From: Haloarcula marismortui ATCC 43049
GTDB taxonomy: Archaea > Halobacteriota > Halobacteria > Halobacteriales > Haloarculaceae
Direction: 5' to 3'
Assembly (NCBI RefSeq): GCF_000011085.1
Contig: NC_006396.1
Coordinates: 2,170,001-2,234,000 of the forward strand
Length of the DNA stretch: 64,000 bases
In this document: piece by piece, positions 1-51,261 of the stretch
Position numbering within the stretch: position 1 is the stretch's first letter
Layout: every line of letters starts with the position of its first letter
Position numbers and translations under genes: made by a program
The notes under the pieces: model-generated
What the model was told of the DNA's origin: nothing
Database searches by the model: none
Seen by the model: only the letters and a program-made list of their open reading frames with translations

Positions 1-2076
1 GATCGACCGCATCGCCAGCGCCGAGACCTCGTTGACGAGAATCCGGGCACGGGTCCGCGAGTAGTCCTTGGCGATGGTGTCGACGATTTCGCCGCCGAAG
101 GCCCCGACGGCGTCCTCGTCGATAGTGCCGCCAGTCATCTGGCCGTCCTCGACGACGACAGTGTCGCCAGCAGAGGACGTGAACTCCAGATTCAGGTCGT
201 CCGGCAGCAGCTCCGAGAACAGCGAGCGGCCGGTCCAGTACTCCTCGCCGCCCTCGTCGACGCCGTCGGCCTCGGGCAGCTCGTCGATGCGGGTCGCCCG
301 GAGCAGGTCAAGCGCCTGCGTCTCGTTGAACTTCGGATTGGTGTGGGTCAGCAGGTAGGTCCCGCTGATGTGGTCCTGAATCGCGCCGATGATGTTCTCG
401 CCGAAGCGCGGGGAGAGCATCTGTTCCTGCACGCGCATGAGGACGCGGGCTTCGGCCCGGGCCTCCTCGTTTTGCAGGGCGTGCATGTTCATCTCGTCCC
501 CGTCGAAGTCAGCGTTGTACGGCGGACAGACCGTCGTGTTCAGCCGGAACGTCTTGTACGGCATCACGACGACCTCGTGGGCCATGATGGACATCCGGTG
601 CAGCGACGGCTGGCGGTTGAAGATGATGATGTCACCGTCGACCAGATGGCGGGACACTTCCCACTCCGCTTCGACCTTCTCCGCGAGTTCCTCGCAGTTC
701 TTCTCGGTCACCTTCAGTCGGCGGCCGTCCGGCCGCTTGACGTAGTTCGCGCCGGGGTGGGCTTCAGGCCCGTTGGAGACGTACCGTCGCGCTTCCTCAA
801 GGTTGCGCTCGGTGACGTTCATCGTCTGGGTCATCTCCTTGGCGACCCGGTCCGGCACACCGACCTCGTTCAGCGAGAGCGTCGGGTCCGGCGAGATGAC
901 GGTCCGAGCGGAGAAGTTCACGCGTTTCCCGGACAGCGACCCACGGAATCGGCCCTCCTTGCCTTTCAGGCGCTGGGAGAGGGTCTTCAGCGGCCGGCCG
1001 GAGCGGTGTCGCGCCGGCGGCGTGCCCGAAATCTCGTTGTCCATGAAGGTGGTGACGTGGTACTGCAGCAGTTCCCAGAGGTCCTCGATAATCAGCTGTG
1101 GCGCACCCGCCTCGCGGTTCTCCATGAACCGCTGGTTGATGCGGATGATGTCCACAAGCTTGTGGGTGAGGTCGTCCTCGGAGCGCTGGCCGTTGTCCAG
1201 CGTAATCGAGGGGCGAGCGGTGACCGGCGGCACCGGCAGCACCGTCAGAATCATCCACTCCGGTCGGGAGCGGGCCGGTTTCATCCCCAGCACTTCGATG
1301 TCCTCGTCCGGGATGTCCTCGAACCAGTCTCGGATATCGCTGGGCATGAGCTTGTTCATGTCCTCCTCGGTCAGGTCAACCGACAACGCCTTCTCTAGGG
1401 CCTTGCGGTCCTCCTGCCGGGGTCGGAACTCGCCGCTGAGAATCTCCTGAACGCGGCTGCTGTCGATGCCGGTTTCTTCGGAGAGCTCGATGGGCGAGAT
1501 CGGGTCCTCGGACTCCTCCATCGCGGCGGCGATCCGCTCGGGGTAGTCCGAGGCCAGCACGTCCTGCACCTCGTAGTAGGTGGTCGGCTTCTCGTGTTTG
1601 ATATCGTACTGCTTCTCGCCACAGAACGGACAGCGGTCCTTCTTGCGGGCCTGCCGGATGGCGGCCTTGGTCACGTCGTTGAGGTCGCGACCGAGGTCCT
1701 GGGTCCGTGTCAGTCGGTCAGCGAACTCGTCGCGCTCGTGCTCGTCGAGACAGAGCCGGGAGCACTCCCGGCAGGTCCCGCGCAGGAGTCGGCGGATGAG
1801 CTTCGCGAACCCGACGTGGATGACGGGCGCAGCGAGTTCGATGTGGCCGAAGTGGCCGTTACACGACCCGCTGTGTTTCCCGCAGGTCTTACACTCTAGA
1901 CCGGGGTCGATGACACCGAGTCGCGGGTCCATCAGCCCCATGTCGATGGGGAAGCCGTCGTCGTCGTACGTGTCGGCCGTAATCACTTTCGTGGCCGACA
2001 TCTCTCGGTACTCCTCTGGGTCCATCAGCCCGAAGCTGAGCTGCCCGATTTCCTGGGGTGTCTGTTGTGAGCTCAT
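1..2076 (-). CDS. rpoA1: DNA-directed RNA polymerase subunit A' (3' end outside window)
   Basis: Largest catalytic subunit of archaeal RNA polymerase, N-terminal part of the split beta'-like chain. The first 692 residues lie in the window and the rest runs off the left edge. Zinc-binding Cys/His residues are seen at C62, C65, C72 and H75, with further CxxC pairs near residues 102 and 150. The catalytic Mg-binding signature [10 protein letters not shown] occupies residues 521-530. The ATG overlaps the rpoB' stop by four bases (ATGA), which indicates translational coupling. It is the fourth gene of the H-B''-B'-A' operon. The separate A'' gene expected downstream is not in view. Confidence 0.97.
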
Positions 2077-3899
2077 ACTGCGTCCTCCAGTTCGATCCGC
2101 GGGGCGATTCCGAGCGCCTTCATCTCGTCGAGTAGGAGCTTGAACGCGTAGGACATCTCGACCTCGTGGATGTCGGTCTCCTCCTCGCAGTTCGGACAGT
2201 AGATGCGCCGTTGCTCGACGTTCTCGACGGCGGTCATCCCACACTGTCCACAGACGTTGATCCACTCGCGGTCGGACTCATCGAGCAGGCGCTCCTTGAG
2301 CGCCATCGCCGCACCGTGCCCGATGAGCACGTCCCGTTCCATCTCACCCACACGCAGGCCACCTTCGCGGGCGCGCCCCTCGGTCGGCTGGCGGGTGAGG
2401 ACCTGCACCGGCCCGCGCGAACGGGCGTGCAGCTTGTTCGAGACCATGTGGTACAGCTTCTGGTAGAAAATATCGCCGACGAAGATCTCCGCGTCGATCT
2501 TCTCACCGGTCACACCGGAGTACATCGTCTCCTTGCCGCTAGAGTCGAAGCCGTGCTCTTCAAGCGAGCCACGGAGTTCATCCTCGTCCTCGCCGGTGAA
2601 GGCGGTACCGTCGACGCGGCGGCCTTCGAGCGCACCGACCTTTCCGCCAATCATCTCAAGGATGTGGCCGACGGTCATCCGCGACGGCAGTGCGTGCGGA
2701 TTGATGATGAGGTCCGGGACGACACCCTCCTCGGTGAAGGGCATGTCCTCCTGCGGGGCGATGTGGCCGACGACACCCTTCTGGCCGTGCCGTGACGCGA
2801 ACTTGTCCCCGAGTTCGGGGATGCGCTCGTCACGCACAGAGACCTTCGAAAGTTTCGAGCCGTCCTCGCCTTCCATTAGCGTGACCGTGTCCACGACGCC
2901 GGATTCGCCCGAGCGCATCGTCACGCTCGTCTCCCGACGTTTCTGCGGTGAGAGACCGCCCATGTCGTCCGGCTCTTCGAGGAACCGGGGCGGGCTGGTC
3001 TTGCCGAGCAGGACGGCGTTCTCGCCGACCTTCGTTTCGGGGTTGACGAGGCCATCGTCGTCGAGGTGCGTGTACGCTTCCTCGCCGCGTGCGCCACGAA
3101 CCTCGTCGTCAGGAATCTCGAAGCGGTCCTCCTGACCGCCGGGGTAGCGCCGTTCCTCGCCCTCGTAGGTACGGAAGAAGTGTGAACGGGCGAGCGCGCG
3201 GTCGACCGACCCCTGGTTCATCACGAGTGCGTCCTCGATGTTGAACCCCTCGTAGCTCATGACGGCAACGACGAAGTTCTGTGCCGCGGGGCGGTCGTCG
3301 TAGCCGATCTGTTCGGTGGTCTGGGTCTTGACCATCGACAGCTGCGGGTAGTGCAGCAGGTGCTGGCGCGTGTCCGGGCGAATTCGGTAGTTCGCCGACG
3401 GCAGGCCAAGCGACTGCTTGATCATCCCCGACCCCATCGTAATCCGGGGCGAGGCGTTGTGTTCGGGGTAGGGAATCATCCCGGCACCGATACCGAACAT
3501 CAGCTGCGGGTCGACTTCCAGGTGCGTGTGGTTGTCGGTGAGTTCGCCCTCGTCGACACCGACGAGGATGTCCTCCTCTTCCTCGGCGTCGATGAACTCA
3601 ACGAGGCCGCGTTCGACGAGCTCTTCGAATTCGAGCTCGCCCTCTTTGACCTGCTCGACCTCCTCGTCGGTCATCAGCGGCTCGCCGTCCTCGACGACCA
3701 GCAGCGGGCGTCGGGCACGGCCAGCGTCGGCGTTGATGATGACTTCCCCGGTCCGGTTCTTGACCGAGACGTTGACCATCTGGGAGACGTCCCCCCGTCG
3801 TCGCGCCTGTCGTACCTGTTCTGCGAGCTGTTCCGGGTCGGGATGTGTCCCAACCAGACTACCGTTTACGTATACCTTGGCTTCGCGTCCCTGACTCAT
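2073..3899 (-). CDS. rpoB1: DNA-directed RNA polymerase subunit B'
   Basis: C-terminal half of the beta-like RNA polymerase subunit, 608 residues, forming the nucleotide-binding and wall/clamp side of the active centre. In many archaea, including halophiles, beta is split into B'' and B'. Conserved blocks include [12 protein letters not shown] and [11 protein letters not shown] Cys4 zinc ribbon (CGQC ... YCPNC) lies near residues 550-572. The gene starts one base after the rpoB'' stop and overlaps rpoA' by four bases, so it sits within a tight operon. The start is unambiguous from the spacing. Confidence 0.97.
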
Positions 3900-3900
3900 A

Positions 3901-5466
3901 TTAATCGTCCGCGGGCTGCTGTTCGATCGACTCGATACCGGGGATGCCCTGGACCCCCATCTCTGCGAGTTCCTGTTTGAGACCCTGTGGGTCCGATACG
4001 TCCTGTGACAGCTCCATCGCCTGGGCGAAGTTCTTCACCAGCCCACAGTTGGGGCCTTCAGGCGTCTCCGAGGGACAGATACGACCCCACTGGGTCGCGT
4101 GCAGGTCCCGTGCTTCGAAGTGTGGCTGGGAGCGACTGAGCGGCGAGCGCAGTCGCCGGAGGTGTGACAGCACCCCCATGAAGTCTGTCCGGTCAACCAG
4201 CTGGCTCACGCCAGAACGGCCGCCGACCCAGTTCCCCGTCGCGATCGGGTGTTCGAGTCGCTCAGTCAGCACGTCAGAACGAACGACCGTCGAGACGGAC
4301 AGCTGGCGGTTTCGCATGTTGGCCCGCTCAAGCTGGTATTTCACGTCCCGGGCGAGCTTGTTCAGCGCCGTCCGGAACAGGTCGGTCATCAGGTCGCCGC
4401 TGACCTTCAGCCGCTTGTTGGCGTAGTGGTCCTTGTCGTCAGATTCGCGGCGGCCCAGTGCCAGTTCGAAACACGCCTCGGCCATCCGGCAGAGGTAGAA
4501 CGCCTTGTTGATGCGGACTTCTTCTTCCTCGACGCCTTCCTCATGTAGATGCGGGAGGAGATAGCGGTCGATAACGTAGTTAGCTCGCTTGAGCTGGTAG
4601 TTCTTGCCCTGCCCGGAGGCGACACGCTTGCCCAGCGTCTCGATGGCTTCCTCGGTCGTCTGGACTTCGGCCTCCTCCAAGTTCTCCAGCATGAACTTCA
4701 CGATTTCCGGGTCCTCGCTGACGCGGTGGACGATCTCCTCGTCCGACTCCAGCCCCAGCGCGCGGACCAGCGTGACGAAGTCGATACTGCCCGAAACGGA
4801 CGGGAACGAGACTTCCAGCAGCCCGTCCCGCGTTCGTTCACACAGCACCAGTGCGCGGTACCCACGGCGCTGGGAGAACGTCTTGGCGACCTGCACCTCG
4901 TCGCCGTACTTGGTGTCGTACTCGGCAAGAATCTTGTTCGGGGCAAGGTCCTCACTGGTCATCAGCACCCGCTCGGAGCCGTTGACACAGAAGTAGCCAC
5001 CGGGGTCTGCAGGGTCCTCGCCGATGTCGATGAGTTCCTCGTCGGTGAAGCCCGCGATGTTACACTTGTTCGACCCGACCATGATGGGCATTCGCCCGAT
5101 CTTGGTCTCCGTCCGGTCGACGACTTCCTCCGGTTCTTCCTCGCCACCGCGAACGATGGCCATCTCCATGAACACCGGCGCGGAGTAGGTGATGTTTCGG
5201 AGTCGGGCTTCCTGCGGGTACAGCAGTTCCTCGCTGCCGTCAGCCTCGCGGACCCGTGGAGTGACGACGCGGACGTCGCCGAGTTCGACCCATACCGGTT
5301 CCTGCCCTTCCTTGTCACCGATGTCGGTCTCGATGGTCTCTTTCTCGTCGACGACCTGCTGCATTCCCCGGTCGAGGAATGCGTTGAACGAGCGGAAGTG
5401 GTGTTCGGCGAGCCGTTCCTTGGCGAAATATTCACGCGATATAGCGCGGCGATCTTGTGTGTCCAT
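3901..5466 (-). CDS. rpoB2: DNA-directed RNA polymerase subunit B''
   Basis: N-terminal half of the beta-like RNA polymerase subunit, 521 residues, containing the protrusion, lobe and fork regions. The block [11 protein letters not shown] followed by [28 protein letters not shown] is the universal fork region and ends at the usual B''/B' split point. The start codon shares one base with the rpoH stop (TAATG arrangement), and the stop is one base before rpoB'. The split is normal for this lineage and is not a frameshift: both halves have their own start and stop and conserved ends. Confidence 0.97.
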
Positions 5467-5693
5467 TATTCTACCACCAGTCGATACACGACGGCTTCAT
5501 CCGTCGTTCTGGAGTCGCGGACGATCCGGACCACGTCACCGACTTCGGCGTCATCGGGCAGCGCCTTGTCGGTACGCTTGATCTTCGGAAGGTCCGTCTT
5601 CTTGATTTCATACTCAGTGAGTACTGCTTCGAGGTCATCCTCGTCGACGACGCTGTGGTCTGGGACGAGGTCGTGTTGACTTACATCTACCAT
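5466..5693 (-). CDS. rpoH: DNA-directed RNA polymerase subunit H
   Basis: Small archaeal RNA polymerase subunit, homologous to the C-terminal domain of eukaryotic Rpb5, 75 residues. It carries the family core from VPDHSVV through [28 protein letters not shown] to the C-terminal YRLVVE. The frame extends to 5780, but that would add 29 residues absent from the family, so the [14 protein letters not shown] start at 5693 is chosen. It is the first gene of the H-B''-B'-A' operon, and its stop overlaps the rpoB'' start by one base. Confidence 0.95.
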
Positions 5694-5770
5694 GTGTGTG
5701 CGTGTGCGTTTGGCCTGCTGCTGGAGAAGGTGGCTGTCACGAGATACTACAGGGCCGTACTGCCGGGGTG

Positions 5771-5779
5771 CATATAACA
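5771..5779 (-). promoter_or_regulatory. Putative TATA box of the rpoH-rpoB''-rpoB'-rpoA' operon
   Basis: On the minus strand the sequence reads GTTATATG. A start about 25 nt downstream would leave a leader of roughly 50 nt before rpoH. This is assigned by pattern only; no BRE or transcript data are available. Confidence 0.4.
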
Positions 5780-5930
5780 CTTACCAAGTCGCTCTGCCGT
5801 GGCTATCGGACCCGCCCACCCTCGCGGACTGCGGGCGTGGTTGCTCCTACCAACCACATGCAGCAGACCGGACATAGAACTTTGGGTCCCGTCATGTGCA
5901 CTCATCCCGGGGCGGGTCTCTTTGGAAAGT

Positions 5931-5969: not shown

Positions 5970-6042
5970 GCCCGGATGGTGTAGTGGCCCATCATACGAC
6001 CCTGTCACGGTCGTGACGCGGGTTCAAATCCCGCTCCGGGCG
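5970..6042 (+). tRNA. tRNA-Asp (GTC), copy 1
   Basis: A 73-nt cloverleaf. The acceptor stem GCCCGGA pairs with TCCGGGC, the discriminator is G, the anticodon loop contains GTC and the T-arm is GCGGG-TTCAAAT-CCCGC. CCA is not encoded. It is identical to copy 2, 51 nt downstream. Confidence 0.97.
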
Positions 6043-6093
6043 TTCCTATTGCAACCAAACTGGCGAGCGCCATGCGGTGTGTGCTCGCAGTCT

Positions 6094-6166
6094 GCCCGGA
6101 TGGTGTAGTGGCCCATCATACGACCCTGTCACGGTCGTGACGCGGGTTCAAATCCCGCTCCGGGCG
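6094..6166 (+). tRNA. tRNA-Asp (GTC), copy 2
   Basis: A 73-nt gene identical over its full length to copy 1. The flanks differ after the first few bases, which share GTTCCTATTG downstream of both copies. This suggests tandem duplication of the gene together with a short 3' flank. Confidence 0.97.
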
Positions 6167-6239
6167 TTCCTATTGTGAACAATCCCGACGAGCACCGCTT
6201 AGCGTGTGCCCGTTATCGTGAGCGATGACACGCGCAACA

Positions 6240-6320
6240 GGGATTTGAATCCTGGAAGTCGCGCACAGCGAACGTAGTGAGCGAGCACGTCTTGCTCTGG
6301 TTCAAATCCCGCTCCGGGCG
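6240..6320. repeat. T-arm inverted repeat with a duplicated tRNA-Asp 3' end
   Basis: The right arm (6299-6320) is an exact 22-nt copy of the tRNA-Asp 3' end, T-arm plus acceptor strand and discriminator, followed by a T5 run. The left arm begins GGGATTTGAATCC and continues TGGAAGTCGCGC. This is the approximate reverse complement of the right arm and its 5' extension (GCACGTCTTGCTCTGG). The spacer contains GCGAACGTAGTGAGCG. Related structures occur next to tRNA-Thr and tRNA-Gly in this window. It could be an integration scar or a small repeat element; the function is unknown. Confidence 0.75.
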
Positions 6321-6615
6321 TTTTTCTGATTTTAACTCGACAAACGATGCGTTTCATCGCGTCGCTTTCGTTCTACATCTCAACCCAGTACACGCGTTAG
6401 TAGCTATTCAGTAGGCAGTAAACACCGCATACTTGCTGAGAAAACGGCACATACTGATATTACAAGAGCAGGGCAACAGCAGACGGCCGGGGAGTGCCCC
6501 CTTGGCCTGTCATAGTGTCCGTCCACCGGGGTCGGACGTGCTATCACTCCACGGGGGCTGGCATATGTTTTGTGTTGCTTGTAAGACGTGCCGATAAGCG
6601 ACTGCGGGCGACAAA

Positions 6616-46934: not shown

Positions 46935-47568
46935 GTGGTGGTGGCTGGTCGGGCCGTGCTTACGCGTCGTTTGCTACACTGCTGTGAATCGACGGCAACC
47001 CCTGCTCAGTTAGCGTCCGCTTGGAGCAGCCGTTTGATTTCGCGGTGCGAAGTGAGGGAGGCCGAAGACGGTTGTCGGACAGAAACCGAGGAGCTGGCCC
47101 GACTGTCTGTCGCCGCGGACAGCGTAGAAATACAGCGCCAGCGCAACGGACGCCGGAGCGGCGGTCGCTTTCCGATTGCGACGCCGCGTCTCCCTTTCCC
47201 TGCGTGGTACTCACATGCAACGTTAGGCCTACTCCGGTATATCCCTTTGCAAGGGGTCAGCAGAACTGACGGCCTCAAAACCTCATAGGAGACCGATATT
47301 CGGGATTATAGCTGCCACTGGCACACTATCCACTTACGAACCGCCAGAAGCCTGCGCAGTTGGTTCCTCGTAAAAAGCCTCAGCGGGACACACACGGCGA
47401 GGTTGCGCAGAGATGGACCTCCGCGAAGCTCGTTCGTTGCAGAAAGCATGGGCCGGTTGAACCAGAGGAAGACTCTCAGTGGTCGTCTTCCAGGGATTCA
47501 AATCCCGCATCCGGCGTTTCACGCGCTCCGGACCCATCGCTGACGCTCTGGGTCAGTCGCTTGGAAAA
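46935..47568. other. Gene-poor region with degraded sequence before tRNA-Thr
   Basis: A 634-nt stretch. Several overlapping frames exist but none has a recognisable family or consistent codon bias. On the minus strand, between about 47000 and 47215, neighbouring frames read like broken pieces of a small protein (a short hydrophobic run LALYFYAVRG in one frame), so a decayed gene is possible. Around 47365-47385 the minus strand reads GAGGCTTTTTAC, like the end of the tRNA-Thr unit. The right part holds the T-arm inverted repeat at 47453-47516. Confidence 0.45.
47453..47516. repeat. T-arm inverted repeat near tRNA-Thr
   Basis: The left arm CCGGTTGAACCAGAGGAAGAC mirrors the right arm, which begins GTCTTCC and continues GGGATTCAAATCCC then GCATCCGGCG. 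The inner 7 bp GGAAGAC/GTCTTCC are perfect. The right arm looks like a tRNA 3' end (T-loop TTCAAAT plus an acceptor strand ATCCGGC and G) but does not match tRNA-Thr, so its parent tRNA is not in this window. It is related in design to the elements at 6240 and 51088. Confidence 0.65.
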
Positions 47569-47640
47569 AGCCTAGGCCGGAATTTGAATCCGGGGTCTCG
47601 TCCTTACCAAGGACGCGCTTTACCGCTAAGCTACCCAGGC
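47569..47640 (-). tRNA. tRNA-Thr (GGT)
   Basis: A 72-nt cloverleaf on the minus strand. The acceptor GCCTGGG pairs with CCTAGGC (one G-T pair), the anticodon stem CGTCC/GGACG has loop TTGGTAA giving anticodon GGT, the T-arm is CCGGA-TTCAAAT-TCCGG and the discriminator is T. No CCA is encoded and no intron is present. A T5 run follows directly. Confidence 0.95.
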
Positions 47641-50974: not shown

Positions 50975-51045
50975 GCGCCGGTGGTCCAGTGGTAGGACAT
51001 TGCCTTCCCAAGGCAATAGCCCGGGTTCAATTCCCGGCCGGCGCA
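50975..51045 (+). tRNA. tRNA-Gly (CCC)
   Basis: A 71-nt cloverleaf. The acceptor GCGCCGG pairs perfectly with CCGGCGC, the anticodon stem TTGCC/GGCAA has loop TTCCCAA giving anticodon CCC, the T-arm is CCGGG-TTCAATT-CCCGG and the discriminator is A. CCA is not encoded. No clear TATA box was found close upstream. Confidence 0.96.
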
Positions 51046-51087
51046 TTTTGCTGCGAGTAATTCGCGAGCAGTAAATGCAGTAGCCGT

Positions 51088-51173
51088 GAATTGCACCCTA
51101 TCAGTCGCAGCCCGGAAAGCGAACGCAGTGAGCGACCCGGAACGTCTGAGTCTGGTTCAATTCCCGGCCGGCA
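51088..51173. repeat. T-arm inverted repeat with a duplicated tRNA-Gly 3' end
   Basis: The right arm (51154-51172) repeats 19 nt of the tRNA-Gly T-arm and acceptor strand exactly, then diverges. The left arm GAATTGCACC with CAGTCG is the approximate reverse complement of CGTCTGAGTCTGGTTCAATTC. The spacer contains GCGAACGCAGTGAGCG, nearly identical to the spacer of the tRNA-Asp element at 6240. Confidence 0.7.
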
Positions 51174-51261
51174 CACTCCACTCTGTCGTTTACCGCTATG
51201 AGCGACACAACCCGCGGACCGCGGGATACTTGTCGGGGCCGGGCATACCCAGAGCCAACAG

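Follow-up and report, generated by a model that had tools for sequence, protein, structure and literature searches.

A class-wide family of units with copied tRNA 3' ends behind tRNA genes of Halobacteria

Behind the tRNA-Asp genes of Haloarcula marismortui ATCC 43049, the tRNA 3' end is repeated exactly and is preceded by an inverted arm complementary to it, which raises the question of what such a structure is and how it came to lie there. In the 64-kb stretch of the genome analysed here (the window), two tRNA-Asp(GTC) genes stand in tandem on the forward strand (5970..6042 and 6094..6166, both found by ARAGORN and Rfam RF00005), and the 3' end of the second anchors the unit in question. Twenty-four nucleotides of the tRNA-Asp 3' end occur with 100% identity at 6021-6044, 6145-6168 and 6299-6322, so the exact copy placed at 6299-6320 in the initial annotation stands and is extended to 24 nt; its distance of 132 nt from the real gene is correct when counted from the second tandem gene. 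The unit, which lies entirely on the forward strand, begins with a weakly folded hairpin, HP1 (6168..6235, fold z -1.13), followed by the conserved hairpin, HP2 (6239..6318, tail included; 71.6 bits and E 1.0e-14 with the covariance model R1, fold z -3.36). HP2 opens with an inverted T-arm, GGGATTTGAATCC (6240..6252), which is complementary to the copy at 12 of 13 positions and forms the 5' arm of an outer helix through arm-to-tail pairing. An inner helix that covaries across the family (helix 2) consists of GGAAGTCG (6254..6261) and CGTCTTGC (6288..6295), between which lies a terminal loop structure or spacer, GCGAACGTAGTGAGCG (6268..6283), that varies from unit to unit, and the 24-nt copy (6299..6322) is both the tail of the unit and the 3' arm of the outer helix. 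The reverse-complement arm, the second arm pair and the spacer described initially were thus all recovered. The tandem pair of tRNA-Asp genes (5970-6166) is present in H. marismortui and several Haloarcula genomes, and others carry a single gene. The second full gene occupies a unit-like position and is preceded by a leader resembling that of a unit, as would be expected if entire tRNA genes could be duplicated in the same register as the units. Upstream of tRNA-Asp, large minus-strand ORFs at 2073-5780 of the window presumably encode split RNA polymerase B subunits and a small subunit, which they resemble by eye.

The other two tRNA loci of the window carry relatives of this unit. A well-formed one lies behind tRNA-Gly(CCC) (50975-51045, + strand); its hairpin spans 51085..51173 on the same strand (R1 match C8:2221085-2221173:+, E 1.2e-9), its tail copy at 51155-51175 has a single mismatch, and its inner arm differs yet pairs (ATCAGTC..GTCTGAG). 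The relative 3' of tRNA-Thr(GGT) (47569-47640, - strand) is a degenerate hairpin at 47446..47507 on the minus strand (R1 match C8:2217446-2217507:-, E 4.1e-7), with the sequence TTGAATCCCTGGAAGAC..GTCTTCCTCTGGTTCAA. It had been proposed that the three loci have one arm design and a spacer in common. The layout is indeed common to all three, but the arm GGAAG(A)C occurs in only two; the spacer matches at chance level inside the window (2 matches, 1.9 expected), and the excess emerges genome-wide, in the tail copies behind tRNA genes.

A genome search with a 97-nt stretch of the tRNA-Asp locus gave strong matches nearly all of which lie downstream of tRNA genes in H. marismortui. Examining the flanks of all 46 tRNA genes detected by RF00005 in this genome (both Asp genes counted), we found at least one copy of the tRNA's own last 19 nt (≤5 mismatches, within 600 nt) downstream of 19, spaced by about 100-155 nt and arranged in arrays of up to three. 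Upstream copies were found at none of the 46, save for the duplicated tRNA-Asp gene itself. The same bias appeared in a genome from another family (G007), with copies downstream of 22 of the 41 tRNAs and upstream of 0/41. The set of tRNAs concerned differs from that of H. marismortui: copies are present at Ala, His, Ile, Phe, Glu and Pro, and Gly-CCC, Thr-CGT, Lys-CTT and Tyr are without them. A covariance model built from 28 hairpins (R1) gave 29 matches at E<1e-4 in H. marismortui, and every one is behind a tRNA gene. Two apparent strays proved to lie behind tRNA-Gln(CTG) and behind an uncalled tRNA-like 3' end. The latter, GGGGGTTCAAATCCCTCCGACCCCA, lies together with the unit behind it in C8:646480-646690, was missed by both ARAGORN and RF00005, and probably belongs to an intron-containing tRNA. 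Chance is ruled out as the origin of these copies by their absence upstream, their recurrence throughout the class and the covariation of the hairpin.

The R1 family was detected in 385 of the 391 Halobacteria genomes searched, representing 84 of 86 genera, which strongly supports the initial proposal of a recurrent element tied to tRNA genes. The units are on the same strand as the tRNA and always downstream of it, either singly or in tandem, with arrays of up to five, and each of the 30 best loci among the 391 genomes is behind a tRNA and has a tail copy with 0-1 mismatches. In a sample of the phylum, R1 matched 23 of the 24 Halobacteria; the two marginal genomes beyond the class gave only 31-nt, chance-like matches and were dismissed, and within this sample the family is essentially absent outside Halobacteria. 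The exact pattern of one hairpin type was found in 31 stretches among about 85,000 species genomes, all from Halobacteria (Halorientalis, Halobacterium, Haloarcula, Natronorubrum, Natronomonas, Halosimplex and others). R1 had no match in six genomes of the class, namely G014, G054, G129, G276, G313 and G316. Three of them belong to one genus (g22), the other members of which have 6-12 matches, and G014, with a GC content of 47%, carries tail copies at 0/29 tRNAs. No unit was found away from tRNA genes, either by R1 in H. marismortui, by blastn in a phage collection, or by the exact pattern in viral contigs.

Throughout the family, a unit is about 100-155 nt long (the spacing ranges from 81 to 187 nt) and consists of a variable leader directly after the tRNA end, the conserved hairpin, and the tail, a copy of the 3' end of the local tRNA that starts at the T-loop and stops at the discriminator. 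The 5' arm of the hairpin repeats the T-arm of this tRNA in inverted form and is complementary to its T-loop. The leader is weakly folded (family mean z -1.25), whereas the conserved hairpin folds strongly (mean z -4.4). Its outer helix pairs GGRTTYGAACC with GGTTCRAATCC, unpaired CT/TCC separates it from the inner helix, and the hairpin ends in a GA-rich variable part. Tandem G-A motifs in the loop were considered as a kink-turn, a reading that is unsupported as there is no three-base bulge. The inner helix varies in sequence (GGAAG/CTTCC, GCCAG/CTGGC, ATCAG/CTGAT), and its compensatory changes exceeded those in all shuffles and all slid controls. The outer helix had been picked by complementarity in the covariation alignment and was therefore examined again in 201 units, leaving position 57 out of the score; there, tail base 57 and its arm partner were A-T in 134, G-C in 45, A-C in 7 and G-T in 2 (Fisher 2e-33). 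Counted on the tRNA-sense strand over related sequences, 61 of 603 chances for a G-U departure from Watson-Crick pairing were taken, as against 32 of 1206 for an A-C departure. This G-U excess points to folding of the tRNA-sense strand, which may take place as RNA or as single-stranded DNA.

Comparison of the tRNA-Asp locus among 30 Haloarcula genomes revealed that the number of units ranges from 0 to 4. Their leaders and hairpins are of several types, which succeed one another as a mosaic, and in every case tail copies mark the boundaries. At two unit-free loci (L113 and L116), the DNA directly behind tRNA-Asp is 70-85% identical to the flank that follows the last copy elsewhere, and these loci are thus empty sites. 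Between species, units come and go and are swapped, and their edges fall sharply at the copies of the tRNA end. The tails also decay with distance from the gene: they carry on average 0.31 mismatches in unit 1, 0.67 in unit 2 and 1.29 in unit 3, and decay is stronger in the last unit than in the first in 21 arrays, with the reverse in 6, in a data set that is enriched for model matches and contains related sequences. Where the tail differs from the tRNA gene, the arm forms a Watson-Crick pair with the base of the gene at 15 of 19 positions and with that of the copy at 2 of 19, in what is a small comparison of 19 positions. This suggests that arm-tail pairing is made at the birth of a unit and is left unrepaired later. 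An arm that matches the gene and not the decayed copy argues against a long-kept RNA function of the individual hairpin, and for a role of the pairing in birth or movement.

The hairpins also appear to have travelled between tRNAs. Between genera, hairpins that stand at different tRNAs can share 91-98% identity over 52-64 nt, and those behind Gly-TCC (L094) and Arg-CCT (L101) differ by one base, which tracks base 57 of the local tRNA. Such near-identity implies that the core was passed from one tRNA to another and that the arm and tail became local. Since a site-specific crossover should bring in the foreign tail, local tails after a change of tRNA need either tRNA-specific pools of units or a step that copies the target. 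Neighbouring units within an array can also be nearly identical, as in G083.

We read the units as gene-less, cassette-like repeats, specific to Halobacteria, that insert and recombine at tRNA 3' ends with the help of an enzyme, and put the probability of this reading at roughly 0.45. New units would enter at a T-arm, either that of a tRNA gene or that in a tail copy already present, by a recombination that needs or makes pairing of two T-arm copies on the tRNA-sense strand, perhaps with the folded single strand as its substrate. The newest unit would then adjoin the gene, older units would be pushed outward and decay, and the direct tail copies would permit loss or duplication of units. We infer active, enzyme-driven insertion at the T-arm, a single-strand substrate and the absence of a host function. 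Any gene that the six R1-negative genomes lack and the others have would be a candidate for the enzyme. Two results count against this reading: the searches above turned up no free or in-transit unit in the phage collection or the viral contigs, and H. marismortui gave no match above the cut-off of the integron-integrase model.

The unit could instead be a structured RNA, co-transcribed with the tRNA and with its hairpin kept by selection, which is processed into small hairpin RNAs or serves as an element of processing, termination or sponging, in the manner of rtT RNA of Escherichia coli. The strong fold (mean z -4.4) and the covariation, the G-U excess on the transcribed strand, the constant sense orientation downstream of the tRNA, the near-universal presence in the class and a design like that of the annotated rttR of E. 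coli all fit it. Nevertheless, we regard it as somewhat unlikely, as the presence of units per tRNA is unconserved (0 to 4 at one locus in one genus, and different sets in H. marismortui and G007), the arm keeps matching the gene after the tail copy has diverged, and six genomes have no R1 match, among them G014, which is also without tail copies. The units may instead owe their spread to no dedicated mobility at all, if tandem duplication, gene conversion and homologous recombination through the tRNA-end repeats spread and homogenised an old hairpin. Direct repeats of about 21 nt flank the units, near-identical neighbours occur in arrays such as those of G083, and the tandem tRNA-Asp gene sits in a unit-like position; homologous recombination between the 21-nt tails could by itself explain the loss, duplication and exchange of units. 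This account is doubtful, however, because it leaves unexplained both why near-identical hairpins with adapted arms occur at tRNAs with different ends and why units occur nowhere else.

A duplicated tRNA 3' end is the classical signature of an att site, and the units could be scars of larger elements, whose tyrosine integrases duplicated tRNA ends before the elements were deleted. Two papers document archaeal tRNA gene fragments left by integrated elements (PMC9897764, PMC8371274), and the duplicated ends seen here agree with such an origin. Independent deletions would nevertheless not be expected to leave spacing as uniform as 81-187 nt, copies in tandem, or one conserved hairpin before the copy at tRNAs that are unrelated. 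The sole match apparently distant from its tRNA turned out to follow a tRNA that had been missed; we thus consider scars very improbable. The initial annotation had offered either a family of integration scars or a minimal mobile repeat that targets T-arms, and it is the minimal repeat that fits much better, owing to the uniform size, the tandem arrangement, the hairpin common to different tRNAs and the empty sites.

The closest known thing to the haloarchaeal units is the tyrT/rttR repeat of E. coli. At tyrT and tyrV of strain MG1655, tandem units annotated as rttR and tpr likewise lie 3' of a tRNA gene, the 3' end of which is copied at the close of each unit. An inverted arm is again complementary to the tail copy, with GGGGAAGGAT pairing with ATCCTTCCCC over 10 bp. 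The comparison concerns one locus of one bacterium, and the interior of the hairpin and the length differ: the E. coli unit is about 178 bp long and has an arm that covers the T-stem and acceptor, whereas the haloarchaeal arm covers the T-loop. Short, non-coding and palindromic repeats with many copies per genome are also known as REP/BIME, MITE-type repeats and the PATEs of Haloquadratum (PMC3119063), but the units differ from all of these in being strictly behind tRNA genes and in having arms that follow the local tRNA. The att duplications of tRNA-targeting tyrosine integrases have the same block of identity, which starts at the T-loop and continues until the tRNA gene ends; unlike the elements concerned, the units are about 0.1 kb long, carry no integrase or cargo genes, occur in tandem and have their conserved hairpin in common across unrelated tRNAs. 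Archaeal integrases have been reviewed (PMC8371274), and the passages on tRNA fragments and integrases in that review and in PMC9897764 describe no such repeats. The Rfam library gave only tRNA and sub-threshold chance matches over the haloarchaeal units.

Integron arrays offer an analogy of another kind. Like the units, their members are each closed by a two-helix hairpin (attC) in which the central spacer is unpaired and the end varies, and they have G^TT in the outer helix; the oldest member lies furthest from the entry site, as we propose for the units. The likeness to attC is purely anatomical: the units contain no gene, and their outer helix is the tRNA T-arm (GGATTYGAACC/GGTTCRAATCC) rather than the RYYYAAC/GTTRRRY core. 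Arrays and foldable hairpins are present in haloarchaea, the hairpin as a recombination site is a candidate, and a strand preference is something that we only infer, from the G-U bias of the tRNA-sense strand. A search of H. marismortui for the integron integrase (IntI, TIGR02249) gave a best match of 27 bits against a cut-off of 265. Some Haloarcula recombinases are weakly similar to the integron integrase, and nothing ties them to the units. It is tempting to go further and imagine a gene-less, integron-like system, in which a recombinase of the host or of an element would join T-arm-shaped single-strand hairpins to any tRNA 3' end, which we hold to be unlikely. If it were true, every tRNA gene of Halobacteria would be an entry platform for cassettes, and bacteria would offer a separate instance of the principle in E. 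coli tyrT.

The class-wide family of tRNA-end units, with its precise turnover and tRNA-matched arms, appears to be new. Our search of the literature, largely of papers available without subscription, returned no description of haloarchaeal tRNA-end units, and none of the origin or role of the E. coli tyrT repeats annotated as rttR. The family occurs in almost all of the haloarchaeal genomes sampled, where as many as half of the tRNA genes carry it, and seems to be without a name or an Rfam entry. With it, the origin of tandem repeats at tRNA ends would become testable in tractable archaea. The units can also mislead searches for genomic islands, because they mimic att duplications at many tRNA genes.

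Two further observations concern viral contigs and plasmids. Broader patterns of T-arm inverted repeats gave mostly weak matches in viral contigs, and those inspected proved to be tRNA clusters or unrelated perfect palindromes. Six proviral IMG/VR contigs contain long palindromes that include a T-arm, for example CATGGATTTGAACC..CCAGAGGTCCACGGTTCAAATCCATGCCCC (L177 1094-1172, L185 2316-2391, L189 8489-8564, L192 13867-13942, L197 356-431 and L201 10958-11026), and at least some of these have a degenerate tRNA-like end. Three copies of the unit are on plasmids; of the two that were inspected, one follows tRNA-Val and the other a tRNA-Glu-like gene. On the megaplasmid NZ_CP031306.1 of Natronorubrum bangense (L167 2848-3063), tRNA-Val(CAC) has a unit directly downstream, and the association with tRNA genes thus extends to secondary replicons.
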